DNA of 35,061 nucleotides from Terriglobia bacterium (GTDB lineage: Bacteria; Acidobacteriota; Terriglobia; Bryobacterales; Bryobacteraceae). A program made the position numbers and the translations under genes. This document shows, one piece after another, positions 1,584 through 33,844 of this stretch (position 1 is its first letter; each line of letters begins with the position of its first letter). The stretch lies in NCBI GenBank assembly GCA_020073265.1, contig JAIQFN010000064.1:1-35061 (forward strand), read 5' to 3'. The notes beneath the pieces are model-generated. The model saw nothing but the letters and a program-made list of their open reading frames with translations, searched no databases and was not told where the DNA came from.

Positions 1584-1599
1584 TGCAGGACACGTGCCA
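1584..1599 (-). promoter_or_regulatory. Sigma-54 (-24/-12) promoter of the amino-acid dehydrogenase gene
   Basis: Minus-strand TGGCACGTGTCCTGCA matches the RpoN consensus TGGCAYGNNNNTTGCW at 11 of 12 defined positions, with the obligatory GG and GC at correct spacing. The predicted +1 is about 1573, essentially at the start codon. A 12-base inverted repeat, AGGTCAGGACCT, abuts it at 1600-1611. Confidence 0.75.
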
Positions 1600-1629
1600 A
1601 GGTCAGGACCTGGCCCACGGCCGCGCCCG

Positions 1630-2244
1630 TTAGAAAGCCAAGGCTGGGCGCAGGGGACCGAGAAGGTGCGCCATCTGAAGCCGCGCTCGCCTGTGCCGTG
1701 TTTTCACCGTGGGGATGCTCGCGTGCAACAGACCTGCAGTCTCGGCGATGCTGAGCTGCTGCACGTCCCTGAGGTGGATCATGCGTCGATAAGGCGCGGG
1801 TAGTTTGGCGAGCGCTGTCTGGAGCGATCTGACGGTTTCACGCCGCTCGCATTCCTGGAATGGAGAGGCTGCGGGGTCAACCACGCTCACATAGATGAGC
1901 GGAGCCTGGTCGATGGAGACCAGCCGAGAGGTCACGCGCTTCCTCTGCCATTGCCGCACCTCATTGACCGCGATCTTAGTCAGCCAGGTCCTGAAACTGG
2001 CCTCATCACGAAACTGCTCCAGCTTGGTGAGCGCTTTCAAGACCGTCTGCTGAATGAGGTCCTCCGCGTCCGGGTCATCTCGCATCCTGGCGCGAACCAA
2101 ACGGAACAGACCCGGCAGATGGGGGTGCAGCAAATCGGCGAACAGTTCTGTACGGCCATCCAGGACTTGGCCGATCAACCGAGCGTCGTTCTGCCGGGAC
2201 AGCAGCTCATTGAAGGCCGGAACGAAGTCGTTCGGAGTCGTCAT
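1630..2244 (-). CDS. ECF-type RNA polymerase sigma-70 factor
   Basis: A 204-residue group 4 (extracytoplasmic function) sigma factor. Region 2 is seen as LFRLVRARMRDDPDAEDLIQ followed by TVLKALTKLEQF and FRTWLTKIAVNEVRQWQRKR. Region 4 is seen as LPAPYRRMIHLRDVQQLS followed by the helix-turn-helix IAETAGLLHASIPTVKTRHR. ATG 2244 was chosen over a longer reading because the preceding sequence carries AAAGG at a good distance and the extra N-terminus would be arginine/serine-rich nonsense. No anti-sigma factor gene is next to it, which is unusual for ECF factors and suggests control by expression level. A weaker -24/-12 match lies at 2283-2298. It is separated from the dehydrogenase by an intergenic gap of about 55 bases. 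Confidence 0.92.
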   Translation of the reverse strand: MTTPNDFVPAFNELLSRQNDARLIGQVLDGRTELFADLLHPHLPGLFRLVRARMRDDPDAEDLIQQTVLKALTKLEQFRDEASFRTWLTKIAVNEVRQWQRKRVTSRLVSIDQAPLIYVSVVDPAASPFQECERRETVRSLQTALAKLPAPYRRMIHLRDVQQLSIAETAGLLHASIPTVKTRHRRARLQMAHLLGPLRPALAF

Positions 2245-2282
2245 CCTGGTGTGCCTTTCGCGTTGCAGCAACCTGGACCTAC

Positions 2283-2298
2283 TGCAGCTTCGATGCCG
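2283..2298 (-). promoter_or_regulatory. Possible sigma-54 promoter of the ECF sigma gene
   Basis: Minus-strand CGGCATCGAAGCTGCA has GG-N10-GC spacing and about 9 of 12 consensus positions. The predicted +1 at about 2272 would give a 28-base leader including the ribosome binding site. It is weaker than the other sites listed. Confidence 0.4.
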
Positions 2299-2400
2299 GA
2301 AGCTATGTACGCATCCTGCGGGGCGGGTGCCGCCTTGCTGAGGGAAATTGCACAGGTCTTGTTGGGCGAAAGCACCCAATTCGGCCCGTACCCGCCTTCA

Positions 2401-3273
2401 CTATTGCGAATGACGGATCACCTCGACTGAGCACAGCGCGTGTATCGCGACGGCTTCCGAAACGCTGCCGATCAGGAAGCGATCGATCCCGCGCCGGCCG
2501 TGCGAACCCACCACGATCAGGTGTGCGCCACACTCGGCGGCTTCCTGGAGAATGATCTCTTTGGGCGTAGCGGAAGGAGCGGCCGCGGTTCCCGACGCCG
2601 GCAAACTTCCTTCGCGGATGATCTTTTCGGCCGACCTCACGGCTCCTTGCGCTCGCTCGATGGCCGCTTCCTCGAGCTTTTTCATAGCCGCCGGGTCCAA
2701 GCGATGCCGATCAGCGGCCGCTGGAAGGCGTATCGGATGTTCCGCTACGCTCAGGATTCGAACCTTCGTTCCCGACGGCCACGGGCGTTCGGCTATCGAT
2801 CGCGCTGCGGCTTCCGAGCATTGGGATCCGTCGGTCGCCAGCAGGATCTTCATCGCTCCCGGAACGGCTTCGGCGCGCACGATTTCGACCGAGCAAGGCG
2901 CGGATCGAAGCACGGCGCGAGCCACGCTGCCGAGAAGAAATCGCCTTACAGACGTTACTCCGTGCGAGCCAACTACGACCAGGTCGGCGCCCATCTCTCG
3001 GGCGCGATCAACAATTGCAGCTTTTGCGTCGCCGCATGACACCAGCGTAGTGGGCTGAATGCCAGACGAACGGAGCTGTTGCGCCGCAGCTTGCACGGAC
3101 TCGTCAGCCATCTGATTGAGCGTCTCCATCAAGGACGGAACGTCCCAGGCGTACAGCGGCTCGACCACGCTCAGGACCTCGACAGTCGTGTTCGGAGGCC
3201 AGGGACGGTCCGCCACAATTGCGACCGCACGATCGCTTTGCGCTGAAGAATCGACCGCCAGAAGAATCTTCAT
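2401..3273 (-). CDS. Tandem-domain universal stress protein (UspA family)
   Basis: Two UspA domains in 290 residues. Domain 1 (about 1-138) starts MKILLAVDSSAQSDRA and ends with the nucleotide-binding signature GSHGVTSVRRFLLGS. Domain 2 (about 142-290) restarts with MKILLATDGSQCSEAA and carries GSHGRRGIDRFLIGS. Both fit the G-x2-G-x9-G-S/T pattern of ATP-binding Usp proteins, so each half probably binds ATP. Such proteins are cytoplasmic and accumulate under starvation, hypoxia or redox stress. The start at 3273 has GGGAACGAG upstream. The gene is divergent from the AAA+ ATPase gene, with a sigma-54 promoter match in the shared region. A second Usp protein is encoded at 11186-12073. Confidence 0.93.
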   Translation of the reverse strand: MKILLAVDSSAQSDRAVAIVADRPWPPNTTVEVLSVVEPLYAWDVPSLMETLNQMADESVQAAAQQLRSSGIQPTTLVSCGDAKAAIVDRAREMGADLVVVGSHGVTSVRRFLLGSVARAVLRSAPCSVEIVRAEAVPGAMKILLATDGSQCSEAAARSIAERPWPSGTKVRILSVAEHPIRLPAAADRHRLDPAAMKKLEEAAIERAQGAVRSAEKIIREGSLPASGTAAAPSATPKEIILQEAAECGAHLIVVGSHGRRGIDRFLIGSVSEAVAIHALCSVEVIRHSQ

Positions 3274-3294
3274 GTTGACTCGTTCCCCGCCATC

Positions 3295-3324
3295 CCTTGG
3301 GCTTCTGCAACCCGAGGCCCAAGG
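3295..3324. promoter_or_regulatory. Inverted repeat around the Usp promoter
   Basis: CCTTGGGC (3295-3302) and GCCCAAGG (3317-3324) form perfect 8-base arms around a 14-base spacer. The repeat overlaps the -24/-12 element at 3306-3321, so it may be an operator or simply a hairpin. The same short region serves the divergent usp and AAA+ genes. Confidence 0.4.
3306..3321 (-). promoter_or_regulatory. Sigma-54 promoter of the tandem usp gene
   Basis: Minus-strand TGGGCCTCGGGTTGCA has a perfect -12 block (TTGCA), GG at -24 and correct spacing, with mismatches only inside the -24 block. The predicted +1 is about 3295, giving a 22-base leader. Confidence 0.6.
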
Positions 3325-3383
3325 CCACGGACGGCTTCATCTCGCATGGTATTGGACGTGCATCTCAGTGGCACAGGCGCACC

Positions 3384-5956: not shown

Positions 5957-6136
5957 TTCAGGAATCTCGACCTTTAGCTCCTCGTGCAGTCCGATCATCA
6001 GGTTCAGATAGTCGAACGAGTCGATATCCAGAGCCTCTCGCAAGTTTTCTTCTGAATTGATTTGATCCAGGTTGGCCTCGGGAGCAATCCTTCGCAGGAT
6101 TTTGAACACCGCATTTTTGATCTCCGGGTCGCTCAT
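5891..6136 (-). CDS. Acyl carrier protein
   Basis: An 81-residue acidic four-helix carrier protein. The phosphopantetheine serine is S40 in DIDSFD, a variant of the usual DSLD/DSLE. The following helix ([19 protein letters not shown]) is typical. It is the last gene of the long minus-strand run: its ATG overlaps the E2 stop codon by ATGA, implying translational coupling. No fatty-acid or polyketide synthase genes are nearby, so it is not the housekeeping AcpP in its usual context. The position suggests that it accepts or donates an acyl group connected with the 2-oxoacid dehydrogenase or the acyl-CoA synthetase, but this is inference. The coding 3' end lies antisense within the malic enzyme gene. 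Confidence 0.9.
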
Positions 6137-7308
6137 AGCTTCTCCGGTTCCTGCAGATGCTGGTTCAGCGCGGTCAGGAACTGTGCGCCGCGATGGCCGT
6201 CGGTGGCGCGATGGTCGCCAGCCAGCGTGGCTGTCACCACGGGCCGGATTCCGAGCATTCCATTCTCCGCCCAGGGCGACTGGATGATCCTGCCGAAGCC
6301 GATCAGCGCCACCTGCGGCGGATAAATCACTCCGTGAACTGTCTCCACTCCCAGATCGCCAAGATTGGTGATGGTGACGGTGGCGTCGGTGATTTCGGAA
6401 CTGCGCAGCCGGCCGGCTCGGGCCCGCGTGATCAAGTCCCGCAGAGACTGCATCAATTCATCCAGGTTCTTGCGGCCCGCATCCAGGATCGCCGGCACCA
6501 CCAGGCCGCCCTGTCGCAGCGAGATCGCAAAGCCGATGTGCACCGCTTCCTTGGGCTGAAGCTGATCGTCAATCCAATAGCCATTCAGCTCGGGTACATC
6601 CTGCAACGCGCGCGTGACGGCCTTGATGAGCAGGATCACGCTCAACAGCCGGTCGCTTACGGAACGCTTGCGATTCTCGGCTTCCAGGAATTTCAACGCT
6701 CGTTCGAGATCGATTCTGGTCTCGAGATAGTAATGCGGGATCTCGCGATTTGACCGCGCCATGGCGGCCGCGATGGCCCGGCGCATGTCGGCTCGGAAGC
6801 CGGGCGCAACCGCGGGCTTTTCCACCGGCGCTTTCTTCAAAGCCTCGGCCGCTCGGTCAACATCTTCTTTTGTAATCTCTCCGTGCGGACCGGTGCCCTG
6901 CACCTGACCGAGATCGACGCCGAGCTCCTGGGCCACGCGACGAGCGAGCGGCGAGACTCGAAGACGAGTGGCTGGAGGCATTGGCGCGGGCGCGGACGGT
7001 GCGGGCGCGGACGGTGCGGGTGCAGGCGGCGCGGGCTGGATCGCTTCATGAACCAGCGCGGCGGGTGCCTGGCCTTCTTCCCGAATCACCGCCAGCACGG
7101 CGCCCACCGGCAGGGTCTCTCCCGGCTGGGCCAGAAGCTGATCGACAACACCGTCGTGATAGACCTCGACCTCGATGTCGGCTTTTTCGCTTCGCACCAC
7201 GCCGATGATGTCGCCGCGCTGGATGCGATCGCCCGGCTTGACGCTCCACTCGATCAGGGTGCCTTCCTCCATGTCCGCACCCAGGCTCGGCATGCGGAAC
7301 TCAGCCAT
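6133..7308 (-). CDS. 2-oxoacid dehydrogenase E2 (dihydrolipoamide acyltransferase)
   Basis: A 391-residue E2 subunit that transfers an acyl group from lipoamide to CoA. One N-terminal lipoyl domain (1-77) carries the lipoyl lysine K42 in [10 protein letters not shown] proline/alanine-rich linker follows, then a peripheral-subunit-binding domain ([16 protein letters not shown] and [13 protein letters not shown]), then the catalytic domain with the HRATDG motif (His366, Asp370) near the C-terminus. The start ATG 7308 overlaps the E1-beta stop by eight bases. Products could be acetyl-CoA from pyruvate or acetoin, or branched-chain acyl-CoA; pyruvate is favoured by the acetyl-CoA synthetase and malic enzyme neighbours. 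No E3 gene is in the cluster. Confidence 0.93.
6982..7032. repeat. Short tandem repeat encoding the Ala/Pro linker of E2
   Basis: The run of ggtgcgggcgcggac-like units encodes alternating Ala-Pro-Ser in the flexible linker between the lipoyl and subunit-binding domains. Such linkers are normal in E2 proteins. The repeat is prone to length variation. Confidence 0.6.
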
Positions 7309-8296
7309 GCGCGGGCACCATCGCTTCCACGGCCGCGGCGATGGCAGCAACCTGAGGGAAGGAAGCATCCTCGAGATGCTTGGGATAAGGCGTCGGCACT
7401 TCGACTCCGCAGATTCGCTCGACCGGCGCATCCAGCTCGTAGAAGGCTTTCTCCTGGATGCGGGCGCAGATTTCGGCGGAAATGCCGCCACTGCGCCAGC
7501 CTTCATCCACCACCAGCGCTCGGTGAGTTCGCCCGACAGACTCCAGGAACGTGGCCTCGTCCAGCGGCCGCAGGGTGCGAAGGTCGATCACTTCCGCTTG
7601 GATGCCCTTCTTGGCCAGCATCTGCGCGGCATCCAGGGATTTCCAAAGCATGGCCCCATAAGTGATGATCGTGACATCGCTGCCGGCGCGACGCACTCGC
7701 GCCCGCTCGATGTCCACCGGGCCCGCGTCGGCCGGCAATTGCCCTTTCATGTTGTAGAGGCCGGCGTGCTCGAAGATCAGGACGGGATCCGGATCTTCCA
7801 GCGCTGTGCCGAGCATTCCTCGCGCGTCTTCGAGCGTGGCGGGCGCCAGAACTCGGATTCCTGGGATGTGCGCGAACCAGCCTTCCAGGCTGTGCGAGTG
7901 CTGTGCGGCTACCTGCCTGCCTCCACCGGTCGCCATCCGGATCACCACCGGCACGTTGAACTGGCCGCCCGACATGTGCAGAAATGTAGCGGCGTTGTTC
8001 ATGATCTGGTCGAGCGCGAGCAGGCTGAAGTTGACGGTCATGATCTCGACGATCGGCCGCATGCCGCCCAGCGCGGCGCCGATTCCCGCACCGACGAACG
8101 CCGACTCGGACATGGGCGTGTCGCGAATCCGCTCGGGACCGAATTCCTCGAGCAGTCCCTTGGACACCGCGAAGCAGCCGCCGTAGCGGCCGACGTCCTC
8201 GCCCATCAGGAACACGCGGTCATCTTTGCGCATGGCCTCGCGGATCGACTCGCGGATGGCTTCACGATAGCTCGATGGAGCCTGTGCGGCGGTCAT
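7301..8296 (-). CDS. 2-oxoacid dehydrogenase E1, beta subunit
   Basis: A 331-residue transketolase-like beta subunit of the heterotetrameric thiamine-diphosphate E1. The N-terminus has [20 protein letters not shown] and the family-typical [20 protein letters not shown]. Central [20 protein letters not shown] and the C-terminal transketolase domain ([18 protein letters not shown]) follow. With the alpha subunit it decarboxylates a 2-oxoacid and acylates the lipoyl group of E2. The ATG at 8296 overlaps the alpha stop codon by ATGA and the stop overlaps the E2 start. The size and layout also fit acetoin dehydrogenase AcoB, so the substrate is not certain. Confidence 0.93.
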
Positions 8297-9293
8297 GTCG
8301 GCCTCCGTTCGCTATAGACGAAGCGCTCCAGATCCGTCACCGGCTCCCAGGTCCCCGCCTCAGCGAAGGCCACGGCATCGTCGATTTCGGCTGCGATGTC
8401 GCGCTCCAGGCGCTCCAGATCGGAGTCGAGGATGGCTCCCTGTTGCTTCAACGACGACTCGAGATTCGAAATAGGGTCGCGCTTTTTCCACTCTTCGACT
8501 TCCGCCTTGGCTCGATACAGCTCGGGATCGTACATCGAGTGCGCTCGAAAACGATAGGTCCTGCACTCCAGAAAGAAAGGACCTTTTCCGGCGCGGATCG
8601 CGGCGAGCGCCTTCTGCGCAGCGGCTTCGACTGCGAAAACGTCCATTCCATCGACGGCCTCGGCGGCCATCCCGTAGGCGGCGGCCTTCTTCGCCAGGTC
8701 GGTTGCGGATTGGGCCAGATCCAACCGCGTACCCATCGCGTACAGGTTGTTCTCGCACACGAACAGGACCGGCAGCCGCCAGAGTGTAGCGAGATTCAGG
8801 CTCTCGTGAAATTCCCCTTCGGCGACGGCGCCATCGCCGAAGAAGCAGCCCGTGACAGTTGTTTTTCCGCGCATCTGGTCGGCCAGGGCGAGGCCGACCG
8901 CCACAGGCAAACCTCCGCCGACAATGGCGTTGCCGCCGCAGAAGCGAGTCTTGGCGTCGAACAGGTGCATCGAGCCGCCTCGCCCGCGGCTGCAGCCTTC
9001 CTGCTTGCCGTAAAGCTCCGCCATGATGGCGCGAGCCGGGATTCCGCGGACCAGTGCGTGGCCGTGCTCCCGGTAGGTCGCGACGATGCCATCCTCAGGC
9101 CCTAATGCCTGCACCACGCCAACTGCCACGGCTTCTTCGCCGTTATAAAGATGTAGAAAGCCGCGGATCTTCGCGGCGGTGTAGAGCTCGGCGCAGCGCT
9201 CTTCGAGCCGGCGAATACGCAACATCTGCTTCAGGCATTCGATAGCGTGCGTGCGTTCCACCGCCGGCGCGGACTGAACTTCCAAGGGAGGAC

Positions 9294-9297
<4 letters not shown>
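8293..9297 (-). CDS. 2-oxoacid dehydrogenase E1, alpha subunit
   Basis: A 334-residue thiamine-diphosphate-binding alpha subunit. The ThDP motif starts at GDG (154-156, [17 protein letters not shown]) and closes with ENN about 30 residues later. [19 protein letters not shown] is the family signature before it. It pairs with the adjacent beta subunit. The start at 9297 overlaps the acetyl-CoA synthetase stop by four bases (ATGA), so the whole block from the synthetase to the carrier protein is a chain of overlapping genes. Pyruvate is the likeliest substrate; acetoin is an alternative. Confidence 0.93.
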
Positions 9298-11054
<1,757 letters not shown>

Positions 11055-11185
11055 AACTCTCAAGACGCCTTGCTTGGATAGTGACGATGAGCATGTGAAC
11101 TTCCAGCAAATGCAGGCAACCGATTCAGAATGCGGGCCTTGCAGAGGATGGAAGTGCGCAACCTCGCGCCGTGAAACTGCGGGAT

Positions 11186-12073
11186 TTAACCCACAATCTG
11201 CCGAGACGAGTCCGCTTCCTCATGTCCGAATCCGTTCCCGAGCAGCAGCAGAGGCACCTCGACTTCGCGCAACAGGGCTTCGAAGGATTCGACGTCCTTG
11301 AGCAGTTGCCGATCCGCCAGAACCAGCAGAACCGCTCCTTCGTCTTTCACCGCGCGCAGCAGGCTGGTTTTTTGGTCCGGATCGACTCGCCGGTATCGGA
11401 CTTCGATGGCCCGGCCTTGCAGCAGGCTCCGAATCTCGGCCAGCGTCTTCTCATAGTCGGCTGTGCAGACCAGAACCGTGATGCCTTGGGCCCCAGGTCT
11501 CGCCAGCGAGGCGGTGACCAGCAAGGCGCTCTTGGAAGCCGGTGAGCCGTCATAGTAGACCGCCAGCCGCAGGTTGCCTAGCACGGCGCGTCGCGAGATC
11601 AGCAGCAGGGGAATCCTGCTGGTCGCGAGCTCGAGCGCAGTGGAACCGATTCGCAACCGGCTGCCGGAGGACCAGCCCAGCCTGCCGATGGCCACGATGT
11701 CGCTTTGGCCGGCCGCGGTCCGCAACACGGATGTGACCTCGCCACGCACGGTCTGAAATGACCATCGCAGTTGAGCGCGATGCGCGGCGGCCGCCAGCGT
11801 GTTTCGGATTTGCTCGGACTGAGCTCTCAGCTTGCGCTCCATGATGGCGCGGTTCAGAGGAGCCTGGCTGGCGGCCGGATACGCGATCTCTCTGGCGGAG
11901 GGGGAATCCGCCATGCGAAGCAGCGCAACGTCCTCGACAAACAAACCGGCCAGCTCGGCCTCCATCCTGGCCGCTAGGTCGACGGCCATTTCCAGCGCCG
12001 CCACACTGTCCGGGGAGGCATCCAGCGCGACCAGAATCCGCCGGATCGCATGGCTGGTGTCGGGATCGCTCAC
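11186..12073 (-). CDS. Universal stress protein, two-domain, divergent
   Basis: A 295-residue Usp-like protein. The first domain begins [20 protein letters not shown] and contains the insertion seen in long bacterial Usp proteins ([16 protein letters not shown]). Its nucleotide loop is [20 protein letters not shown]. The second domain ([20 protein letters not shown]) lacks a clear G-x2-G-x9-GS motif, so only one half may bind ATP. The start is GTG 12073, which forms a GTGA overlap with the stop of the Lon-like protease gene; a longer in-frame reading upstream is composed of implausible sequence. Coupling to a protease and a CBS gene supports a stress or energy-sensing role. Confidence 0.88.
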
Positions 12074-14505: not shown

Positions 14506-14511
14506 GCGCGC

Positions 14512-22744: not shown

Positions 22745-22801
22745 GTCAATTCACCTTCTTTCTTGCTTGGAACCGGGCGTTTGTCCTGCCGAACAACGGG
22801 A

Positions 22802-23662: not shown

Positions 23663-23678
23663 TGCAACCCCGATTCCA
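23663..23678 (-). promoter_or_regulatory. Sigma-54 promoter of the small-protein/DksA/HPF/SagB run
   Basis: Minus-strand TGGAATCGGGGTTGCA matches 10 of 12 positions with a perfect TTGCA -12 block. The predicted +1 is about 23652. It lies in the 251-base gap 23596-23846, where I see no other feature. Confidence 0.65.
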
Positions 23679-25331: not shown

Positions 25332-25347
25332 TGGCATGGGGCTTGCA
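25332..25347 (+). promoter_or_regulatory. Sigma-54 promoter of the OmpA/BON envelope operon
   Basis: TGGCATGGGGCTTGCA fits every defined position of TGGCAYGNNNNTTGCW. The predicted +1 is about 25358, just before AAGGGTGG and the ATG at 25374. It is the best match in the window. Confidence 0.85.
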
Positions 25348-25373: not shown

Positions 25374-26966
25374 ATGAAGACCGGAATCCTGATGGCCGCA
25401 ATCAGCCTTGCTTTTCTTTCCATGGCGATACCTCAGGCGCCAGCTCAACAGGCGGAACCGCGCGAGGGTAACGCGCCCATCTACCGAGTAACGGTAGTGC
25501 AACGTACCGCTAAGGCCATCAATTACCAATACCGTTCCGGGCCCACCAAGATCGATTTTCGCGGCACGGTGCTGCTTCCACACGCCAAAGGTGACGCGAC
25601 CGTGGAAGCGCGCCGGGGACGCACTGAAATTGGGGCGAGGCTGGAAGGCCTGACGACACCCCAACGCTTCGGCAGAGAATACTTGACCTATGTCCTGTGG
25701 GCGATCACGCCGGAGGGCCGGCCGCACAACATTGGGGAATTGATCGCCGATGGCTCCGATAAGGCCAGGGTCCACGTCACCACCGATCTGCAGGCTTTCG
25801 CGTTAATTGTGACCGCGGAGCCTTACTCGGCGGTGCGGCAGCCGAGCGATGTTGTGGTGCTCGAAAACGAGGTGCGTCCCGAAACCCTGGGGATCGTCGA
25901 GCCGGTTCGAGCCAAGTACGAACTTCTGCCGCGCGGCGAGTACACCTGGCGCGTGCCGAGCGACCTCGGCGCGCCCCCGGTCAATTCTCCCAAGGTCTCG
26001 ATGCACGAGTATGACGCGATTGTCGAGCTGTACCAGGCTCGGAACGCCGTCGGCATCGCGGGCAATGCAAACGCGGAACGCTACGCCGCGGACACATTCG
26101 CTCAAGCCAAGAGACTGCTCGCGGAAGCGGAGCGATTGCATGACGAGAAGGCCGACTATAGCCGGGTGGTCCAGAGCGCGCGCGAAGCGGCGCAGACCGC
26201 GGAGGACGCTCGCATGATCGCTCAGCAGCGCCAGCAGGCCGAGCGACTGAAAACCGCCGATGCGGAGCTGTCGGAAGCGCAGGCCAAAGCCGCTAGCGCC
26301 CAACAGGTCCAGGAACGCGCCGCCGGCCAGGTGCAGCAGGCCCAGGCCGAGGCGGACGCCGCGCGGGCACAAGCTCAAGCGGCCCTGGCCGCGCGCGATC
26401 AAGCCGAGGCTGAGGCACGGGCAGCGCGCGAGCGAGTTGCGCCGTCGCGACCCGCGGCCAGCGGCATCCAGGATCAGCGCGAACTGACCGCGGCCCGGGA
26501 ACGCGATTCGCGCATGCGGCTGCTGCAGGACTTGAAGCGAGTCTTTCCCACGCTGGACACGACTCGTGGTTTGGTGGCCACGCTGCCCGATGACAGCTTT
26601 GTCGGCGGAGTGGTTCGAGGTGCGTCCGCAGGTCAGGTGGCTCGGATGGCCACGATCCTGATGCGCCAGCCGGGTCTGTCCGTTTCCGTCGAAGGGCATT
26701 CAGACAGTGCCGCCCGGGATACGCAGGCGCGAGAGCGCGCCGACGCGGTCCGTCATGAGCTGGTTGCCAACGGCGTGCCTGCCGGTTCGGTTTCCGCGAC
26801 GGGATTGGGCGACAGCCGTCCGTTGTCTTCCAACGCCACCTCACAGTGGCGCAAAGAAAACTCGCGAGTCGAAATCGTGATCGCGGGAGACGCCATCGGC
26901 AAGCTGCCGCTGTGGGAACAGACCTACAGCCTCACCCGGCCCGAACAACATCCATCCGGGAGGTGA
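25374..26966 (+). CDS. OmpA-family outer-membrane/peptidoglycan-anchoring protein with coiled coil
   Basis: 530 residues from ATG 25374 (AAGGGTGG upstream). A signal peptide (ILMAAISLAFLSMAIPQAPA) is followed by an N-terminal beta domain (about 35-210: YRVTVVQRTAKAINYQYRSG, FRGTVLLPHAKGDATVEARR). A long Ala/Gln/Glu coiled coil (about 220-380, DUF4398-like start: NAERYAADTFAQAKRLLAEA) leads to a C-terminal OmpA domain with SVSVEGHSDS, RERADAVRHELVANGV and ATGLGDSRPL (the peptidoglycan-binding Asp and Arg are present). It would tether the outer membrane to peptidoglycan. It heads an operon with two further envelope genes. Confidence 0.9.
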   Translation: MKTGILMAAISLAFLSMAIPQAPAQQAEPREGNAPIYRVTVVQRTAKAINYQYRSGPTKIDFRGTVLLPHAKGDATVEARRGRTEIGARLEGLTTPQRFGREYLTYVLWAITPEGRPHNIGELIADGSDKARVHVTTDLQAFALIVTAEPYSAVRQPSDVVVLENEVRPETLGIVEPVRAKYELLPRGEYTWRVPSDLGAPPVNSPKVSMHEYDAIVELYQARNAVGIAGNANAERYAADTFAQAKRLLAEAERLHDEKADYSRVVQSAREAAQTAEDARMIAQQRQQAERLKTADAELSEAQAKAASAQQVQERAAGQVQQAQAEADAARAQAQAALAARDQAEAEARAARERVAPSRPAASGIQDQRELTAARERDSRMRLLQDLKRVFPTLDTTRGLVATLPDDSFVGGVVRGASAGQVARMATILMRQPGLSVSVEGHSDSAARDTQARERADAVRHELVANGVPAGSVSATGLGDSRPLSSNATSQWRKENSRVEIVIAGDAIGKLPLWEQTYSLTRPEQHPSGR

Positions 26967-26972
26967 CAGAAC

Positions 26973-27221
26973 GTGACTCGAGAACGGATTGTGGGTTTTA
27001 TGTTGGGCATCAGCGTGGGAACCGCGGTCGGCTTCTATCTGCGGCCGTCGGAGCGCGATCGAAGAGACCTGCGGCGCGCTCGAACTCCGGAGGGGGCCAC
27101 CAACCTGCGCAAAGCCCGCGATCCACTGACCGCCGTTCGCCCGTCTTCCCAGCGCTGGCCAGAGCAGGCGCATCGCTGGAGCGGCGAACCGGCTCAACGC
27201 AGTGGAACGAACAAACAGTGA
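26973..27221 (+). CDS. Small single-pass membrane protein (YtxH-like)
   Basis: 82 residues starting at GTG 26973 with GGAGG about nine bases upstream. One short N-terminal membrane helix (VGFMLGISVGTAVGFYLRPS) is followed by a basic, disordered tail. This layout resembles YtxH-type stress proteins, without sequence identity that I can assert. It sits six bases after the OmpA gene and 24 before the BON lipoprotein gene. Confidence 0.7.
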   Translation: MTRERIVGFMLGISVGTAVGFYLRPSERDRRDLRRARTPEGATNLRKARDPLTAVRPSSQRWPEQAHRWSGEPAQRSGTNKQ

Positions 27222-27245
27222 AAAGGAACGAGAAAGGAGACCGAG

Positions 27246-27848
27246 ATGCGAATCGCAATGACTCTACTGATGGCTGGATTGCTGACTAGCCTGGGTTGCT
27301 CGAATACCGGCACGCAGGTGACGTCAGCGGCCAGCTTGACGAATTCGGATTTGCAGCAGATGGTACAGTCCAAGCTGACTTCCGATCCACAGCTTGCGCA
27401 GGTTGAGGTAAGCGCGGATGCGGATCAAAACCAGGTTACATTGTCGGGTTCGGTCGCATCCGAACAGGCGCGCAGCGATGCCGTCGATATGGCCAAAGCT
27501 GCCCACGCGAACCTGCAGGTGGTGGACAAGATCGATGTGAAGCCGCCAGAGGTATCGCGCAGCGACTACACCGCGGACATGGCCCGAGAGACCAGGGAGA
27601 AGGCCAAGGCGCTGGGCGACAAGATCGGCCAGTCGCTGGATGACGCCTGGATTTATACCAAGATCGAGACCAAGCTGGCGGGCAACTCCACCACGCCGGC
27701 TCTGAAGATCAATGTCGACGTCGCCAGGAATGTCGTAACCCTGCGCGGCGACGTGGACTCCGCGGCTGCCAAACAGGAAGCCGAGCAGATCGCCAAGGAC
27801 ACCGACGGCGTCAAGGCGGTGCGGAACCTCATCAACGTGAAGGCATAG
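27246..27848 (+). CDS. BON-domain lipoprotein (two BON domains)
   Basis: 200 residues. A lipoprotein signal with the lipobox LTSLGC (Cys18) indicates outer-membrane or periplasmic anchoring. BON domain 1 spans about 35-100 (LQQMVQSKLTSDPQLAQVEV, NQVTLSGSVASEQARSDAVD) and BON domain 2 about 134-200 (WIYTKIETKLAGNSTTPALK, NVVTLRGDVDSAAAKQEAEQ). Similar to OsmY-type envelope proteins that respond to osmotic or acid stress. AAAGGAGA lies upstream of the ATG. It is the last gene of the OmpA operon, convergent with the phosphatase gene 25 bases on. Confidence 0.9.
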   Translation: MRIAMTLLMAGLLTSLGCSNTGTQVTSAASLTNSDLQQMVQSKLTSDPQLAQVEVSADADQNQVTLSGSVASEQARSDAVDMAKAAHANLQVVDKIDVKPPEVSRSDYTADMARETREKAKALGDKIGQSLDDAWIYTKIETKLAGNSTTPALKINVDVARNVVTLRGDVDSAAAKQEAEQIAKDTDGVKAVRNLINVKA

Positions 27849-27872
27849 CGGCTCGGAGATTCGGCAGGCACA

Positions 27873-28508
27873 CTAGCGCACGCTGGGAGCTTGGAGGGCC
27901 GGATCTCCCTGAGTTGCGGGCAGGGTCGCCGGCAGGGTCCCTGTTCCCGATGCAGCGGCGGCGGCTTTCTGAGGCGGCTGATACTGGATCACGTACTTCT
28001 GCAGGGCGCGTTGATACCAGCTCATTCCGTAGGACCGGGCTTCGCTGAGCGCCTTCTTGTTGTCCCAGCGGTCGTGACCGATTCGATAGCACGCAATCAC
28101 GGCGCCGGTCCGGTCGGCCCCACGCTGGCAGTGCACGAAAACGGGAACAGCCGTGGCGTCATCGAACAGCGCGAGAACCTTGGCAACCTGTTCGTCAGTT
28201 GGCGTGCTCATTCCCTTCATGGGCACGCTGACGTATCGCATGCCCCTGGCTTCGACCAGCCGCTGTTCCTCGGCCTGGGAATGCTCGCCGATGAGGCGGA
28301 GGTCGACGACGGTCTTGATTCCCAGCTTCGCCAAGCTGTCAAATCCCAGCTCGGCAGGCTGAGCGCCTCGATACACCGTTTGGCTGACTTTTTGAAAGTT
28401 GGAAACGCCGGTTAGTTGTGGGCTGCCGGCGGCCAAAAGAACCGGCAAAAATGCCGAGAGAAGGCACACGGCCATCCGGCGCCACAGCGAGGAGTGATAG
28501 AAGTTCAT
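27873..28508 (-). CDS. Secreted dual-specificity/tyrosine phosphatase-like protein
   Basis: 211 residues. The signal peptide (RRMAVCLLSAFLPVLLAAGS) is followed by a phosphatase domain with SQTVYRGAQPAELGFDSLAK, IKTVVDLR, and the C-x5-R active-site loop VHCQRGADRTG (C127, R133). The general-acid aspartate is less clear. The C-terminus is Ala/Pro-rich. The fold and the 'YRGAQP' start are typical of bacterial DSP4-like or phytase-like cysteine phosphatases. Substrates could be phosphotyrosine, inositol phosphate or lipid phosphate; sequence alone does not decide. It is divergent from the TIGR03118 gene across a 201-base region without a strong promoter match. Confidence 0.88.
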   Translation of the reverse strand: MNFYHSSLWRRMAVCLLSAFLPVLLAAGSPQLTGVSNFQKVSQTVYRGAQPAELGFDSLAKLGIKTVVDLRLIGEHSQAEEQRLVEARGMRYVSVPMKGMSTPTDEQVAKVLALFDDATAVPVFVHCQRGADRTGAVIACYRIGHDRWDNKKALSEARSYGMSWYQRALQKYVIQYQPPQKAAAAASGTGTLPATLPATQGDPALQAPSVR

Positions 28509-28709
28509 TGGATGCGAACCTTAAGGGGGGCCGAAAGAGAAGACGCCCGCGAAATGCAATTGGTTGCCTTCTCACGGTTTCAAATCTCGCCAGTCACTTG
28601 TTTCTAACGTCGCCGGAGTACACGGTCTTACAAAAACTTCACAATATCTTAGCTTCCTGGAGCGTAGCAAGCGCGCGTCCGGAGCGATCCAACCGGCGGA
28701 GGATCGCTC

Positions 28710-29855
28710 ATGAAGAAGCACATCATTCTCTACCTGACCGCGCCCCTGCTGGTGGTTGCGATTCCGAGAATTGCGAAGTCGGAACCGCGCGGCAACGTCT
28801 ATATCCGGCACAATCTGGTCTCAGACTTGCCGGCCCATTCCGAGCACCGTGACCCCAATCTGGTGAACCCTTGGGGCGTCACCTTCTCTCCGACGGGTCC
28901 CTTCTGGATCTCGGACAATCATACGGGCGTTTCAACGGTCTACGATGCGCGTGGGAACTCGCTGCCCGAAGGCGCGCCGCTGGTGGTTCAGATCCCGCCG
29001 CCAGCGGGAGGAATGCCGCCCGCCGCTCCAACCTGAATCGTCTTCAACGGCACGGCGAACTTCGCTCTGGCGCCTGGCAAAGCGGCGCTGTTCATCTTCG
29101 CGACCGAAGACGGAACGATCTCCGGCTGGAATCAATCAGTCGATCCCACGCACGCGATTCTCAAGGTGGATAACTCGGGATCAGGCGCCGTGTACAAGGG
29201 ATTGGCCCTGGGCAGCAGCGGCGGCGGGACCTTCTTGTACGCAACCAATTTCAATGCAGGCAGGGTGGATGTCTTCGACAGCAATTTCATGCCGGCCATG
29301 CCCGGCTCGTTCCTGGACGCGAGCATTCCGGCCGGCTTCGCGCCCTTCGGCATCCAGAACGTAGGAGGCAAGTTGCTGGTGACCTACGCCAAGCAGGATG
29401 CCGCCAAGCATGACGACATCGCGGGCCCTGGTAACGGCTTCGTGGATGTCTTCGACTCAAACGGAACGCTGCTGCAGCGCCTGATTTCGGCAGGCGCTCT
29501 GAATTCTCCGTGGGGCATCGCGATGTCGCCCGCCAACTTCGGCGATTTCAGCAACAGCCTGCTGATTGGAAACTTCGGCGATGGAACGATCCACGCGTTC
29601 GACCCGCAGACGGGAGCGCTGCGCGGCCAACTGCTGATTCCCTCGGGCCGTCCTCTGACGATCCAGGGCCTGTGGGGCTTGACGTTCGGCAACGGCGGGC
29701 AAGCGGGCGATCCAGGGATTCTGTATTTCACGGCGGGCATTCCCGGCCCGGGCGCAGTGGAAGACCATGGGTTGTTCGGCCAGATCAGGCCGCAGCACGC
29801 CCGTGACGATGACCGGGATCATGACGGCGAAGGCAAAGGAAAAGATCGCGACTGA
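28710..29855 (+). pseudogene. TIGR03118-family secreted protein interrupted by one in-frame TGA
   Basis: The reading frame runs 381 codons with a single TGA at 29034-29036 (codon 109). Upstream: a signal peptide (HIILYLTAPLLVVAIPRIAK), then VNPWGVTFSPTGPFWISDNH, typical of TIGR03118. The stop falls in PPAAPT-stop-IVFNGTANFA, where family members carry glycine (PTGIVFN), so a GGA to TGA change explains it. Downstream the frame continues with clear family motifs (GFAPFGIQNVGGKLLVTYAK, LNSPWGIAMSPANFGDFSNS, GLWGLTFGNGG) to a charged Asp/Lys tail. GGAGG precedes the ATG. No other disabling change is visible, so the loss is recent, or the base is a sequencing error or readthrough site. Confidence 0.8.
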
Positions 29856-29899
29856 CTGGCGCGCCGGCGCAAGTCGCGGCTGCAGTCCCCGGCACGAAG

Positions 29900-31492
29900 C
29901 TATAGCGTTCCGGTCCGGAGGTCCTTGGGAAGTGCGAAGCGCAAACAGGTCCCAGGCTCCGGCGGCGATTCGATCCAGATGCGGCCGCCGTGCCTTTCGA
30001 TGATTTTCTTGCAAAGCGCGAGACCGATTCCGGCGCCGGACACTTGCGGGCCGTGCAAACGTTTGAATAGACCGAAGACCTGATCCCGATACTGAGGTTC
30101 AATGCCGATGCCGTTGTCACTCACGGAAAGGACCCATTCGCCGCCGCTTTCCGCGGCTGAGACGTGCACCCGCGGGGTTTTGTCGTCGCGATACTTGATC
30201 GCATTTCCGATGAGATTCTGAAAGACCATGACCAGTTGCGGCTCATTCATAGCAAGCACGGGAAGTGGATCGTGCGTGATCACAGCCTCACTCTCTTGAA
30301 TGGCCGCGGCCAGATTCAGCAGCGCTGCTTGCAGCGCGCGAGTGCCATCGGTATCCGCGCCGGATAGCCCCATATCACCGGCTCTTGAGTACAGCAAGAA
30401 TCCGTCGACGAGGGCTGCCATGCGACGCACGCCAGAAGTGATGTAGTTTATGAACTCGTCCGCCTCCTCGCTGAGTTGTCCACGATAGCGTTTCGCCAGC
30501 AGCTCCGCAAAGCTGCCGGTCATCCGCAGGGGTTCCTTCAAGTCATGACTGGCGGCATAGGCAAATTGCTGCAGGTCGGCGTTGGATCGCGCCAGCTCCT
30601 GGGCCTGGTTCGCAAGCTGGTTGCGGGCTTGCTCACGTTCCCAGACCACGGCTGACACTGCCAGCACCATGACCGCACCCACGCCCAGATAGGCCTGCAA
30701 CAGCAGCAGCGATTCATTGGGCGAACCTGTCACGAAAGGGCCAAAACCGTGCAGCGTGCTCCGCAGGGCGACACTCGCCAGAAGAACACTCGACGCGGTG
30801 GCGCCTCGGGGGCCAAAACGGAACGCACTCCAGAGCAGTACTGGAGTAACGATGAATTCGAGAGGGTAGTTTGTTCGGCTCCACGGCGCCCAGCTACCGA
30901 AGGCGACTATGCCCAAGACCAACAGACATGCGATCAACAGAATCGCTTCGCCGATACGCAGCCAGTTTATCCGCTCTCGCCGAGCCCAGAGCACCAGCAA
31001 CGGCGCGAACAGCACTGCTCCGACTGCGTCTCCAAGCCACCATGTCAACCAAATGGGTCCAGCCGCATTCCACGCCGCGAGCCGGCCGAGACACAGGACC
31101 GTCACGCCAATGGTGGCGCTAACCGCGGTGCTGACGCCGGCCAGCAGTGCGAACCGAAAAACGTCCAGCGGCCGGAAGAATGCTTCGCGGCCGCCCGCAA
31201 ACCGGTTCACCAGTAGCGATCCCACGATGGCCTCTAGCGTGTTTCCTGACGCGATCCCCAGGGAGGTCCAGAGTGTTCCGGCGGTCGTCAAATTGACAAT
31301 AAACGCACCTGCCAGGATGCTGGGCCACACCCAAACACCCAGCATTAACATGGTGGCAAGCGCGATGCCGGTGGGAGGCCAGACCGCGGTCGCGCTCTCA
31401 TGCAAGAACGCCAGCCTGAGACCCAGTTTTCCAGTCGCAATGTAGACCAGCGTGACGATCAACAGAACGAAGAGGCGACGAGGCCAGGTCAT
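29900..31492 (-). CDS. MASE1-domain membrane histidine kinase
   Basis: 530 residues. The first ~280 form a MASE1 sensor with about eight membrane segments (RLFVLLIVTLVYIATGKLGL, HESATAVWPPTGIALATMLM, TWWLGDAVGAVLFAPLLVLW). A short coiled coil leads to HisKA with H316 in AYAASHDLKEPLR, then a HATPase_c domain with N (QNLIGNAIKYRD), SDNGIGIEPQYRD and GAGIGLALCKKIIERHGG boxes. The ligand of MASE1 is unknown. It is divergent from the receiver gene at 31657, its most likely partner. The HisKA block resembles that of the kinase at 32131-32955. Confidence 0.92.
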   Translation of the reverse strand: MTWPRRLFVLLIVTLVYIATGKLGLRLAFLHESATAVWPPTGIALATMLMLGVWVWPSILAGAFIVNLTTAGTLWTSLGIASGNTLEAIVGSLLVNRFAGGREAFFRPLDVFRFALLAGVSTAVSATIGVTVLCLGRLAAWNAAGPIWLTWWLGDAVGAVLFAPLLVLWARRERINWLRIGEAILLIACLLVLGIVAFGSWAPWSRTNYPLEFIVTPVLLWSAFRFGPRGATASSVLLASVALRSTLHGFGPFVTGSPNESLLLLQAYLGVGAVMVLAVSAVVWEREQARNQLANQAQELARSNADLQQFAYAASHDLKEPLRMTGSFAELLAKRYRGQLSEEADEFINYITSGVRRMAALVDGFLLYSRAGDMGLSGADTDGTRALQAALLNLAAAIQESEAVITHDPLPVLAMNEPQLVMVFQNLIGNAIKYRDDKTPRVHVSAAESGGEWVLSVSDNGIGIEPQYRDQVFGLFKRLHGPQVSGAGIGLALCKKIIERHGGRIWIESPPEPGTCLRFALPKDLRTGTL

Positions 31493-31656
31493 GCCAGATT
31501 CCTGAGGTGGACGTGAACTATTCTAGTGCATCCAATGGCGGCCATCCTGGCGCGACGGCCAGCGTTGCGATGGGCCGCGGCGCCAGGGACCGAAGGCGGG
31601 TGGTATCCGCCGCGCGATCGCGTTAGACTAAGCAAGTCAGCATCCAGGAGCAGCCT

Positions 31657-32076
31657 ATGAACCCTGTGTCTGTCCTAGTGATCGAGGACAGCAAGGCTGA
31701 CGCCTTGCTGATGCGGACGATCCTGTCCGGCTCGTCCATGCCAATCGAAGTGACGATCGTCGAAGATGGCGAGAGCGCAACTAGCATGCTCCGCAATCCG
31801 GAGTTCGAGCCGGATCTCATCGTTACGGACCTGAACCTTCCTGGATCCTCCGGCGACCACTTTCTAATCCGGTATCAGCGCGGCGATACTCCTGTGGTTG
31901 TCTTCAGCTCTTCCAAGAGCCCCACCGATGCAGCCAGGGCTCTCGAACTCGGAGCGAGCGAGTTTGTGGAGAAGCCGGTTACTCTGGACGCCTTCGCGGA
32001 AGCCCTCTGGGCGGTGATCCGGAAATGGACGGCCGGAAGGCACGGCACACGCAAGGGAGTGTTGGAGAGGAGATGA
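31657..32076 (+). CDS. Stand-alone response regulator receiver
   Basis: 139 residues, a single CheY-like receiver of the Rcp1 type. The phospho-acceptor is D58 (LIVTDLNLPG), with acidic residues E10/D11 (VIEDSKAD), the switch serine region VVVFSSSK and K in EFVEKPVT. No output domain follows, so it likely acts through protein contact or phosphotransfer. AGGAG lies upstream of the ATG. It sits between two kinases with near-identical HisKA style, divergent from one and convergent with the other, an arrangement that suggests both act on it. It cannot itself be the sigma-54 activator. Confidence 0.9.
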   Translation: MNPVSVLVIEDSKADALLMRTILSGSSMPIEVTIVEDGESATSMLRNPEFEPDLIVTDLNLPGSSGDHFLIRYQRGDTPVVVFSSSKSPTDAARALELGASEFVEKPVTLDAFAEALWAVIRKWTAGRHGTRKGVLERR

Positions 32077-32130
32077 CTGGCCTCCATCGATTGCCAGCAA
32101 CGGCCCGCTGACTCGACATCCAGCGGACGC

Positions 32131-32955
32131 TTAAACGGGGCCCAACTGTTTTGGCAGCGTGAACCGAAAGGTTGCGCCTTGGCCGGCCGCCGATTCCACC
32201 CAGATTTTCCCACCCTGTTGCTCCACGATGCGCTTACAAATGGCCAGCCCGATGCCGCTGCCCGGATACTCGGCGCCGTGAAGGCGCTTGAATGCGCCGA
32301 AGATCTGTTCGTGATCGACAGGGTCGATGCCGATCCCGTTGTCTTTGACGGCAAACGTGATGGAGTCGTCGCCTTCCGCGGCGCAGATGTGGATTCGCGG
32401 CGGGTCAGCTCCCCGGAATGTGAGTGCGTTCGAAAGCAGTTGCCGGAACAATTGAGACAATTGCGCGTAGTCGGACCTGAGGCCGGGAAGCGGATCGAAG
32501 CTGATCTGAGCGCCGGTCTCTCGGATCACATTATCGAGATCGAGCAGAACCCCCTGCAATGCAGCCCCGGAATCCACCTGCGCGAGGGGCTCCCGCGGGT
32601 CTCGGAACTGCTGTGAATAAACCAGCAGATCGGTGAGCAGGCGATCCATCCTTTGCACCGCGTCGACAATGTATTGCATGAACTCGCGGCCAGTGCTGTC
32701 CAACTGGCCTGCATAGACCCGGTCGAGCATCTGAGTGTAGCTCGCAACGGTTCGCAGCGGCTGGCGCAGATCGTGCGCGACGGCGTACGCAAACTGGCGG
32801 AAATCCTCGCTGTGTTGCTTTCGTTCCCTGCGCAGCTGGGCGCGAGAGTCTTCTTGGTCGGCCGCGGGGAACTGCTGGATCTCGGATCCTCCTGGCGGCG
32901 ATTCGTGCGCTGCCTCGGGAGCGTCGAAGCCGCTCTTGCGGTTCTTGGGGCTCAT
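32131..32955 (-). CDS. Soluble histidine kinase lacking a sensor domain
   Basis: 274 residues from ATG 32955. About 50 disordered charged residues precede HisKA with H61 (AYAVAHDLRQPLR), a coiled second helix (FMQYIVDAVQRMDRLLTDLL), and a HATPase_c domain with the N box (RQLLSNALTFRG), VKDNGIGIDPVDHEQIF, and GSGIGLAICKRIVEQQGG. The kinase core resembles those of bacteriophytochromes, but no GAF, PAS or PHY domain is present, so input must come from a partner protein. A TTG start at 32976 is possible but has no better ribosome site. It is convergent with the receiver gene. The 172-base gap upstream holds the promoter of the next gene. Confidence 0.9.
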   Translation of the reverse strand: MSPKNRKSGFDAPEAAHESPPGGSEIQQFPAADQEDSRAQLRRERKQHSEDFRQFAYAVAHDLRQPLRTVASYTQMLDRVYAGQLDSTGREFMQYIVDAVQRMDRLLTDLLVYSQQFRDPREPLAQVDSGAALQGVLLDLDNVIRETGAQISFDPLPGLRSDYAQLSQLFRQLLSNALTFRGADPPRIHICAAEGDDSITFAVKDNGIGIDPVDHEQIFGAFKRLHGAEYPGSGIGLAICKRIVEQQGGKIWVESAAGQGATFRFTLPKQLGPV

Positions 32956-33093
32956 TTCTCTCGGAATCCATCTCAATTATTGCAGAGCGGATGTTACGAA
33001 TCGAGAATGAGCCGGTCGGGCGGCTCTTACACGGACTGTAATTTCTGCCAAGGACCGCTAGCGATAAATCCTCGCCGAATCACGGTTTGGACG

Positions 33094-33109
33094 TGGCAAT
33101 CGCCGTGCT
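33094..33109 (+). promoter_or_regulatory. Probable sigma-54 promoter of the zinc-ribbon gene at 33128
   Basis: TGGCAATCGCCGTGCT matches 9 of 12 positions with exact spacing and GG/GC intact. The predicted +1 at about 33120 leaves only an 8-base leader with no Shine-Dalgarno sequence. Confidence 0.5.
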
Positions 33110-33127
33110 TGCACTGGTGCTCGAGCT

Positions 33128-33322
33128 ATGAACCCGTTACGCCCAACCAGCACTTGTCCGAAGTGCCATTGGACGACGGTGCGTCCTTCCTTGAAACGGA
33201 CCCGGTTGGACCGCGTCTTGAACCTGGTTGGTCTGCGTCCCTTCCGCTGCCGCTCATGCCGACATCGCTTCTATCGCCTTGCATGGCGCGCGAGCAGCAA
33301 CGTCTCCGCGAGTTGGAACTGA
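33128..33322 (+). CDS. Small zinc-ribbon protein
   Basis: 64 residues with CPKC near the N-terminus and CRSC 31 residues later (PFRCRSCRHRFYRL), separated by the basic segment RPSLKRTRLDRVLNLVGLRP. The composition and order recur as a short uncharacterised protein in acidobacteria. It is probably a zinc-binding nucleic-acid or membrane-associated factor, but no function is known to me. It is convergent with the secreted-protein gene, 24 bases away. It resembles the other small zinc-ribbon protein at 19957-20151 only in general plan. Confidence 0.7.
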   Translation: MNPLRPTSTCPKCHWTTVRPSLKRTRLDRVLNLVGLRPFRCRSCRHRFYRLAWRASSNVSASWN

Positions 33323-33345
33323 CGCGGGCGGGCTTCTTTGCGCTG

Positions 33346-33807
33346 CTATTGACGTTCGAAGACCAGAGTCTCCGGGCCATGGCCGGGCCGCTCCACCGTC
33401 AGTACCAACGAGCCGTCGGTTGCGAGATTGTAACGTTCGACCGTAGTTGCGTTGTCCTTGGTCGAAGTGACCTCGAGCGTGTTTCCTTCCCACTTGGGCT
33501 TGGCCTTGGAATCCGGACCGGAGTGAATGGATGCATTGTGCGGCGCGTCCGCGCTGAAGCGGTAGGACACGGTCTGGCCGTTCTGGTCGTAGGTGAAGCT
33601 TTCCGCAACGTAGATGTGGTGCTCCCGGTCATAAATCGTTACCGTGCCAGCCTGGAGCGCGGGTTCCCCGCCAAACTGACTCCGTGCGGGTGCCAGTTTC
33701 CAGGTGCCATTCAATTCGTGATGATGGCTCTCGGCCCAGCCCCAGGCCGGGAACAACGCTAGTATCGCGAGCGATGTCAGAAGAGTCTTAACCTGATGTA
33801 ACAACAT
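33346..33807 (-). CDS. Small secreted beta-barrel-like protein
   Basis: 153 residues with a signal peptide (VKTLLTSLAILALFPAWGWA). The mature part starts HHHELNGTWKLAPARSQFGG and contains strands typical of a lipocalin-like fold of acidobacterial secreted proteins (AGTVTIYDREHHIYVAESFT, YDQNGQTVSYRFSADA, NTLEVTSTKDNATTVERYNL), ending ETLVFERQ. No catalytic motif. GGAGGC lies three bases before the ATG, within the 11-base leader predicted from the sigma-54 promoter at 33829-33844. Confidence 0.8.
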   Translation of the reverse strand: MLLHQVKTLLTSLAILALFPAWGWAESHHHELNGTWKLAPARSQFGGEPALQAGTVTIYDREHHIYVAESFTYDQNGQTVSYRFSADAPHNASIHSGPDSKAKPKWEGNTLEVTSTKDNATTVERYNLATDGSLVLTVERPGHGPETLVFERQ

Positions 33808-33828
33808 GCTGCCTCCACGTTCTGGGCC

Positions 33829-33844
33829 TGCAAGCCTGGTACCA
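33829..33844 (-). promoter_or_regulatory. Sigma-54 promoter of the small secreted-protein gene
   Basis: Minus-strand TGGTACCAGGCTTGCA matches 10 of 12 positions with a perfect TTGCA -12 block. The predicted +1 is about 33818, directly before the GGAGGC site. Confidence 0.65.

Follow-up and report, generated by a model that had tools for sequence, protein, structure and literature searches.

The window analysed here is the whole of one contig (C46, 35,061 bp; JAIQFN010000064.1) from the 6.41-Mb genome, in 131 contigs, of a Terriglobia bacterium of the family Bryobacteraceae, and our subject is the set of predicted sigma-54 promoters, of the -24/-12 type, that lie in front of its genes. According to the Pfam matches (table 1), which also include a radical SAM protein, the window holds an energy block, a stress block and a group that runs from an OmpA-like gene to a histidine kinase. 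The DksA-type protein is a zinc finger, and there are two BON-type proteins, one of them under the cut-off. The product of the gene at 33346-33807 (153 aa) had no family match, and neither a tRNA search nor an Rfam scan, at its threshold, had a hit in the window. An earlier note, written from the sequence alone, had called the window a stress and energy island, and this label is fair.

Sites were scored out of 12 against a consensus with GG and GC doublets 10 nt apart, in the frame TGGCAYG-N4-TTGCW. All 13 sites with exact GG-N10-GC spacing listed in the earlier note were present at their positions and scores, including one full match (25332) and three with 11 of 12 (1584, 15270, and 17375), and the strand of each agrees with that of the next gene. 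Site 21659, however, lies too far from a start and was not accepted as a promoter. The site before GDH is doubtful, because its predicted start falls about 2 nt before the ATG and none of four other usable relatives has a site of at least 9. The full match is one of only three exact consensus matches in the whole genome. The statement that most transcription units carry such sites went too far, since sites were found before 13 of 39 genes, in about 28 units as grouped by eye.

Table 1. Predicted sigma-54 sites and genes of the window (score, matches to the consensus out of 12; bits, score with the matrix trained on relatives)
Feature	Position	Strand	Score	Bits	Remarks
Doubtful -24/-12 site	1584..1599	-	11	14.9	before GDH
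Weak site	2283..2298	-	9	8.5	before ECF sigma factor
Weak site	3306..3321	-	9	6.6	before tandem Usp gene
-24/-12 site, not in earlier note	3347..3362	+	9	15.4	before ClpX-like and malic enzyme genes
-24/-12 site, not in earlier note	11090..11105	-		14.7	before acyl-CoA synthetase and PDH genes; start 35 bp away
-24/-12 site, not in earlier note	15007..15022	-	8	13.7	before CBS gene, then LonB and Usp
-24/-12 site	15270..15285	-	11	15.5	before small open reading frame 15041-15247
-24/-12 site	17375..17390	-	11	15.4	before PEP-CTERM gene
-24/-12 site	18048..18063	-	10	15.8	before Hsp20 gene
Weaker site	18102..18117	+	9	10.9	before nitroreductase and PGA_cap genes; 10 bp from chosen start
Site not accepted	21659		9		nearest start (BON gene, 21513) about 145 bp away
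-24/-12 site	23172..23187	-	8	14.3	before DksA-like gene; 25 bp
-24/-12 site	23663..23678	-	10	10.4	before overlapping small open reading frames 23443-23595 and 23219-23446; 67 bp
-24/-12 site TGGCATGGGGCTTGCA	25332..25347	+	12		OmpA-like gene downstream; predicted start about 25358
-24/-12 site	33094..33109	+	9	13.5	before small cysteine-rich open reading frame 33128-33325; 18 bp
-24/-12 site	33829..33844	-	10	15.5	before gene 33346-33807
GDH	465-1571	-			Pfam
ECF sigma factor	1630-2244	-			Pfam
Tandem Usp gene	2401-3273	-			Pfam
ClpX-like ATPase	3420-4544	+			Pfam
Malic enzyme	4520-5956	+			Pfam
Energy block	6133..14964	-			Pfam; PDH E2, E1b, E1a, AMP-forming acyl-CoA synthetase, Usp, LonB-like protease, CBS protein
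PDH E1a/E1b/E2 genes	6133-9297				energy block
Acyl-CoA synthetase	9294-11054				energy block
Usp	11186-12073				energy block
LonB	12070-14505				energy block
CBS gene	14512-14964				energy block
Stress block	16485..23146				Pfam; PEP-CTERM, Hsp20, nitroreductase, PGA_cap, DLH, BON-like (below Pfam cut-off), nitroreductase, S30AE ribosome hibernation, DksA-like
PEP-CTERM	16485-17315				stress block
Hsp20 (DUF2934+HSP20)	17503-18009				stress block
Nitroreductase	18128-18790				stress block
PGA_cap	18833-19909				stress block
DksA-like	22802-23146				stress block
OmpA-like, BON, PTP-like phosphatase, MASE1 histidine kinase, receiver-only response regulator, histidine kinase	25374..32955				Pfam
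OmpA-like gene	25374-26966
Gene without family match	33346-33807	-

The background for all comparisons within the genome was 790 kb of the same genome with 674 genes, called with one home-made script that also served for the window and checked only against Pfam. For the window itself two gene sets were used, namely the 38 automatic calls and a set of 39 genes with curated starts, in which wrong starts (Usp 3273 and PEP-CTERM 17315) had been corrected by hand. Sense sites scoring at least 10 and lying 10-130 bp upstream preceded 5 of the 38 automatically called genes against 5 of the 674 in the background (Fisher p = 7e-5), and 7 of the 39 curated ones (p = 6e-7); the automatic figures are the fairer, because the curated starts were set with the sites already known. 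With scores of at least 9 at 15-60 bp, the corresponding numbers were 6/38 and 9/39 versus 7/674, while antisense sites preceded 1/39 and 12/674. Among the sites of at least 10, only one of the nine in the window lay in automatically called coding sequence, compared with 60 of the 67 in the background; site 2909 also falls inside the Usp gene after the start correction. Raw motif density was rejected as evidence, the window being equal to shuffled sequence. The excess over chance is one of placement and not of bare count, so that the claim of an unusual site density fails against shuffles and stands for sense-upstream placement against the 790 kb.

A weight matrix was trained on 38 distinct sites in front of Hsp20 and OmpA-like relatives, with the window excluded, and was used at a cut-off of 10 bits. 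It found sites before 13 of the 39 curated window genes and 17 of the 674 background genes (p = 3e-10), and when the two genes with relatives in the training set were left out, 11 of 37 remained (p = 2e-8). With automatic starts, 9 of 38 window genes passed, and the maximum across 491 background windows of 38 genes was 3; at 13 bits the window kept 9 and the background maximum was 2. Ten of the 13 sites of the earlier note were among the 13 that passed, while 3306, 2283, and 21659 failed. The matrix added 3347 (ClpX and malic enzyme), 11090 (acyl-CoA synthetase and PDH), and 15007 (CBS, LonB, and Usp), and raised the dksA site at 23172. Because of these additions the energy block, which was empty in the earlier note, has sites too.

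We then found that the sites recur in relatives for three of the genes. Two hundred genomes of the family were searched and up to 30 of the best-matching loci per gene were examined, the OmpA-like family having matches in 191 of the 200. A locus was counted when its best GG-N10-GC site 10-90 bp from the start scored at least 9, expectations were taken from Markov shuffles, and the window was included in each total. Such a site was present at 24 of 30 OmpA-like loci (0.99 expected), 14 of 30 Hsp20 loci (0.88 expected), and 9 of 26 usable loci of the gene at 33346-33807 (0.72 expected; 4 of 30 had no usable upstream sequence). The LonB gene served as the negative control and gave 0 of 12 (0.49 expected; 2 of 14 lacked a usable upstream). 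Conservation in relatives, which the earlier note had proposed as a check, was thus seen for these three genes and not for GDH. Among 17 named Hsp20 loci, 11 of the 15 testable Hsp20 genes had a site of at least 10, as did 10 of 177 neighbouring genes, the latter to be compared with 5/674 in the background (p = 1e-4). The sites of relatives, which were selected for GG and GC, have the shape YGGCA-N7-TGCW; T precedes GC in all 43 and A or T follows in 41 of 43. The OmpA-like sites lie 22-34 bp from the start codon in 26 of 29 cases. Moreover, CBS genes at two relatives' loci have sites of 8 at 23 and 39 bp, and Usp relatives have sites at 25-48 bp on two further contigs of the same genome, C81 (11) and C80 (9), and in loci L222 (10) and L223 (11), while those in L221, L226, L315, and L334 do not reach 9. 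No relative of the PEP-CTERM gene was present among the loci examined.

The genes themselves are patchily distributed. Relatives of LonB occur in 13 of the 200 genomes (the window genome counted), those of GDH in 6, and those of Hsp20 in 29; none of the three was found in the four other sampled genomes of the genus at the cut-offs used, and all three co-occur in relatives G119 and G185. This patchy presence and joint occurrence suggest transfer or repeated loss. Synteny of the whole island was considered and rejected, as LonB relatives are patchy and gene order is not kept. The adjacent S30AE ribosome-hibernation and DksA-type genes (22412-23146) are also found together on contig C88 of G119, which keeps these growth-arrest functions side by side. 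Locus L177 (CALQCC020000024.1), titled Bordetella parapertussis, encodes an Hsp20 57% identical to that of the window, and its title looks like a mislabel. Within the window, a secreted-type reading frame at 28710-29855 is broken by a single in-frame stop at about 29034-29036, which represents either a broken gene or a sequencing error.

The genome contains 80 sites with at most one mismatch, of which 49 are in coding sequence, 23 are upstream in the sense orientation (within 250 bp), and 8 are elsewhere. The window, with 0.55% of the genome, has 4 of the 23. By itself this census is weak evidence: by a rough estimate, a scan of the whole genome could yield about one 35-kb contig with four of the 80 sites, and what counts is the noncoding sense placement. 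The other 19 sense-upstream sites include three Usp genes (PF00582 matches) and, named by eye, Hsp20, ClpX-like ATPase, SCO1-like, and YbaK-like genes, the rest being unrelated or unknown. In a sample of 42 of 43 hand-merged Usp genes from three genomes (a 198-base fragment was also left out), 10 had a site of at least 9 (2.2 expected) and 5 had a site of 11 at 19-26 bp (0.04 expected), three of these five being already in the census. In the C80 stretch, which was chosen for its Usp genes, 5 of 14 genes had sites, GroEL- and BON-type genes among them. On C81, which was picked via the census, sites precede Usp, BON-type, and archease genes. Genes with a site of at least 9 numbered 6/19 on C81, 5/15 on C52, 1/14 on C70, 4/21 on C83, 1/16 on C24, and 2/33 on C67, figures that are biased upward because these loci were fetched partly on census pointers. 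The archease-like gene (G000 C81, locus L354, 15158-17020; named by eye) has a site of 10 at 24 bp upstream and is followed by an RtcB-like gene, a pair that recalls RtcR-controlled RNA repair. Since comparable sites also stand in front of stress genes outside this contig, the block belongs to a larger whole, and the idea of a dedicated 32-kb regulon was not borne out. Some Usp genes would belong to the wider regulon, as probably would a GroEL, an Hsp20, and the archease-RtcB pair on other contigs.

The earlier note had also proposed to look for rpoN and an enhancer-binding activator near the window. There is one rpoN match in the genome (196 bits), and although no activator lies on the contig, the islands of two relatives carry activators of the NtrC type. 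Because the activator family matches all 14 control genomes, only the 17 matches with E values of 1.9e-61 or better were counted in the window genome. In relative G185, contig C23 encodes an NtrC-type activator with the GAFTGA loop, whose gene stands among four clustered sites. G185 C8 and G119 C88 carry another activator, close to genes of the Hsp20, DLH, Usp, and S30AE types, and the two activators are about 36% identical to each other. In the window genome the best match to the G185 C23 protein, on contig C32, is 60% identical to it and contains GAFTGA; it is a candidate only, because it sits with a kinase among ordinary genes. Orthologs of the G185 C8 activator occur in 104 of 200 genomes, and none was found in the window genome at E values of 1e-110 or better; the best of the 12 compared, out of its 17 activators, is 40% identical to that protein. 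When 14 named Hsp20 loci (L171-L184) were searched with four activators, matches were found in two, L172 and L173. The element TTTCGAAA occurs in 7 of 39 upstream stretches and in 4 of 673 others, and all seven belong to related loci of other genomes. As a common island enhancer it was rejected, since the window's upstream stretches do not have it. It lies at -81 to -100 from the sigma-54 sites of Usp and Hsp20 genes in L171, L172, and L173, which belong to one genus, and may be an enhancer element there.

Based on placement and recurrence, we consider it quite likely that the window is a stress/energy-limitation island in which predicted sigma-54 promoters drive about a third of the genes, at the head of about a dozen transcription units, and that it belongs to a larger regulon of which it is the densest part sampled. 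The view that the sites behave as sigma-54 promoters is supported by their sense orientation, their fixed spacing, their position about 20-60 bp before starts, and their recurrence, and it is from these features that we infer promoter activity.

Several results weigh against this interpretation. As bare counts, the motif with up to two mismatches was found 15 times in the window versus 11.2 +/- 3.3 in shuffles, 17 of 100 of which reached 15, and with up to three mismatches 90 times versus 92.8 expected. The choice of curated starts came after the sites had been identified, and the matrix is not independent of the consensus, because its training sites were chosen with it. In the opposite orientation the matrix matched before 5 of 39 window genes and 5 of 674 in the background, so that by this antisense measure part of the window's excess is not oriented; some of these matches may be promoters of divergent neighbours. 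Recurrence was also incomplete. Only the window itself had a site among the five GDH loci (0.23 expected; a sixth was dropped for lack of a start), the single relative of the small frame at 15041-15247 among the loci examined had none, relatives of that at 23219-23446 in three loci had none directly upstream, and the one DksA relative among these loci had only a site of 7 at 106 bp. Outside the window, 32 of the 42 Usp genes were without a site of at least 9, and sites preceded none of 15 genes in the C123 stretch, which was likewise chosen for Usp. As to the regulator, the sole activator match on the contig is weak (at most 24 bits), lies inside the ClpX ATPase gene, and was rejected. The activators of G185 C8 and G119 C88 read GSFTGA, with no literal GAFTGA, a loop stated to be invariant in sigma-54 activators in part of a survey of such regulons (PMC12316311). 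Finally, no common enhancer element was found upstream of the 39 promoters, and NmpR-type boxes were scattered.

Could the sites then be chance matches in GC-rich DNA, picked out by a reader who was seeking them? The window-wide counts equal to shuffles, the 49 of 80 best genome matches within coding sequence, and the failure of listed sites such as 1584 and 21659 would agree with this. However, the same procedure gave far fewer sites in 790 kb of the same genome, and the recurrence in relatives, with its negative control, already contradicts chance for the OmpA-like, Hsp20, and 33346-33807 genes, which makes this explanation extremely unlikely. Several window sites, 17375 for example, are half palindromic, as would be the case if they bound another regulator with a TGGCA-N7-TGCCA-like dyad. 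Yet the base after TGC in relatives is almost always A or T and never C, so that the right half is not TGCCA, and sense orientation and the narrow distances from the start seen for OmpA-like genes fit a promoter; we regard such a regulator as very improbable.

A more serious alternative, to which we give somewhat less than an even chance, accepts the promoters as real and places them under several unrelated activators, for instance a PrsR-like one for the PEP-CTERM gene, so that the window would be a neighbourhood and not one regulon. It is favoured by the 17 strong activator-domain matches, by the lack of a shared enhancer, by the two divergent activators in the islands of relatives, and by the PEP-CTERM genes of Proteobacteria, which are described as having their own sigma-54 site and activator motif in the relevant part of PMC1569441. 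On the other hand, sites are much denser over stress genes than in the background, and genes of this kind turn up again behind sites elsewhere in the genome, which suggests a common logic.

The opening of a closed promoter complex by an ATP-driven activator is established sigma-54 biology, and this switch is better known from nitrogen and flagellar genes. In a common sigma-54 island, the sigma-54 RNA polymerase would be held in the closed complex at the -24/-12 promoters until a stress signal turned on an activator of the NtrC type, which would open it by hydrolysing ATP. The chaperone, Usp, CBS, ClpX, LonB, PDH, and acyl-CoA synthetase genes would accordingly be tightly off and then started together. 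As the signal, dormancy or energy limitation is inferred from gene content; low oxygen or low energy is proposed on the same grounds and by comparison with NmpR of Myxococcus. The survival genes of this bacterium are thus probably activated from tightly gated promoters. If survival islands do depend on sigma-54, the response would be all-or-none and would cost ATP at each activation, an unusual gating of dormancy; the regulon would be readable from sequence in uncultured genomes, and the activator could be found by its binding. Little is known of the way in which Acidobacteria, which are common in soil and grow slowly when cultured, pass into and out of low-energy states. Our literature searches, judged from their results, turned up no sigma-54 stress regulon in Acidobacteriota.

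A bolder hypothesis, which we hold to be rather doubtful, is that in Bryobacterales a dormancy response across the whole genome has sigma-54 and one NtrC-type two-component activator as its master switch. Several islands resembling the DosR and lxa systems (C46, C80, C81, C52, and C83), with their chaperone, Usp, ClpX, and LonB genes and even the PDH/acyl-CoA synthetase gateway to central metabolism, would be switched together from completely off to on, and sigma-54 would take the role held elsewhere by general stress sigma factors or DosR/FNR-type regulators.

Parts of this picture have counterparts in other bacteria. Predicted sigma-54 regulons over 33 classes are reported, in part of the survey cited above, to be enriched for Usp in Planctomycetia and to include chaperones of the GroEL/IbpA type in Planctomycetota and Bacteroidota; the string "acidobacteri" is absent from its main text as available (PMC12316311). 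Sigma-54 promoters of PEP-CTERM genes with PrsK/PrsR are described for Proteobacteria in the part of the study concerned (PMC1569441). Site 17375 before the window's PEP-CTERM gene resembles these, as does a site of 11 on G185 C23 (at 25186, about 540 bp before the called start of another PEP-CTERM gene), but the two activators compared score 342 and 390 against the PrsR cut-off of 502.6 bits. The regulatory logic is most like that of NmpRSTU in Myxococcus xanthus, where, according to part of the report, an NtrC-like response regulator (NmpR) and sigma-54 sites at 7 promoters drive 23 genes, with a CBS protein, Usp, and oxygen-use genes among them, at low oxygen (PMC11841059). In contrast, the NmpR box GCGCA-N5-TGCGC is not enriched in the window (3 versus 5.8 expected), the window has no activator, and its gene set is larger, with chaperones, proteases, and PDH. 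The lxa locus is similar in that genes for Usp, a heat-shock protein, and a BON protein are packed closely together, a clustering that is found in the window by Pfam; it is discussed together with CRP/FNR-type FixK regulation, and the portion of the article concerned makes no mention of sigma-54 (PMC6127331). An FNR-type box occurred 12 times in the window against 8.0 expected, and 10 of 100 shuffles reached 12, so that it was not clearly enriched. The DosR regulon of Mycobacterium reportedly comprises Usp, Hsp20, nitroreductase, CBS, and ribosome-hibernation type genes, all of which are represented in the window as well. It is said to be spread over many scattered loci, whereas the window is without a DosR box, the core of which had no match with up to two mismatches. 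DosR is mentioned in both the lxa article (PMC6127331) and the NmpR report (PMC11841059). Considering that the content is that of lxa and DosR and the logic that of NmpR, while the DosR, FNR, and NmpR boxes are not enriched, what is new here is a DosR/lxa-like stress repertoire that is predicted to be wired to sigma-54 in Acidobacteriota.

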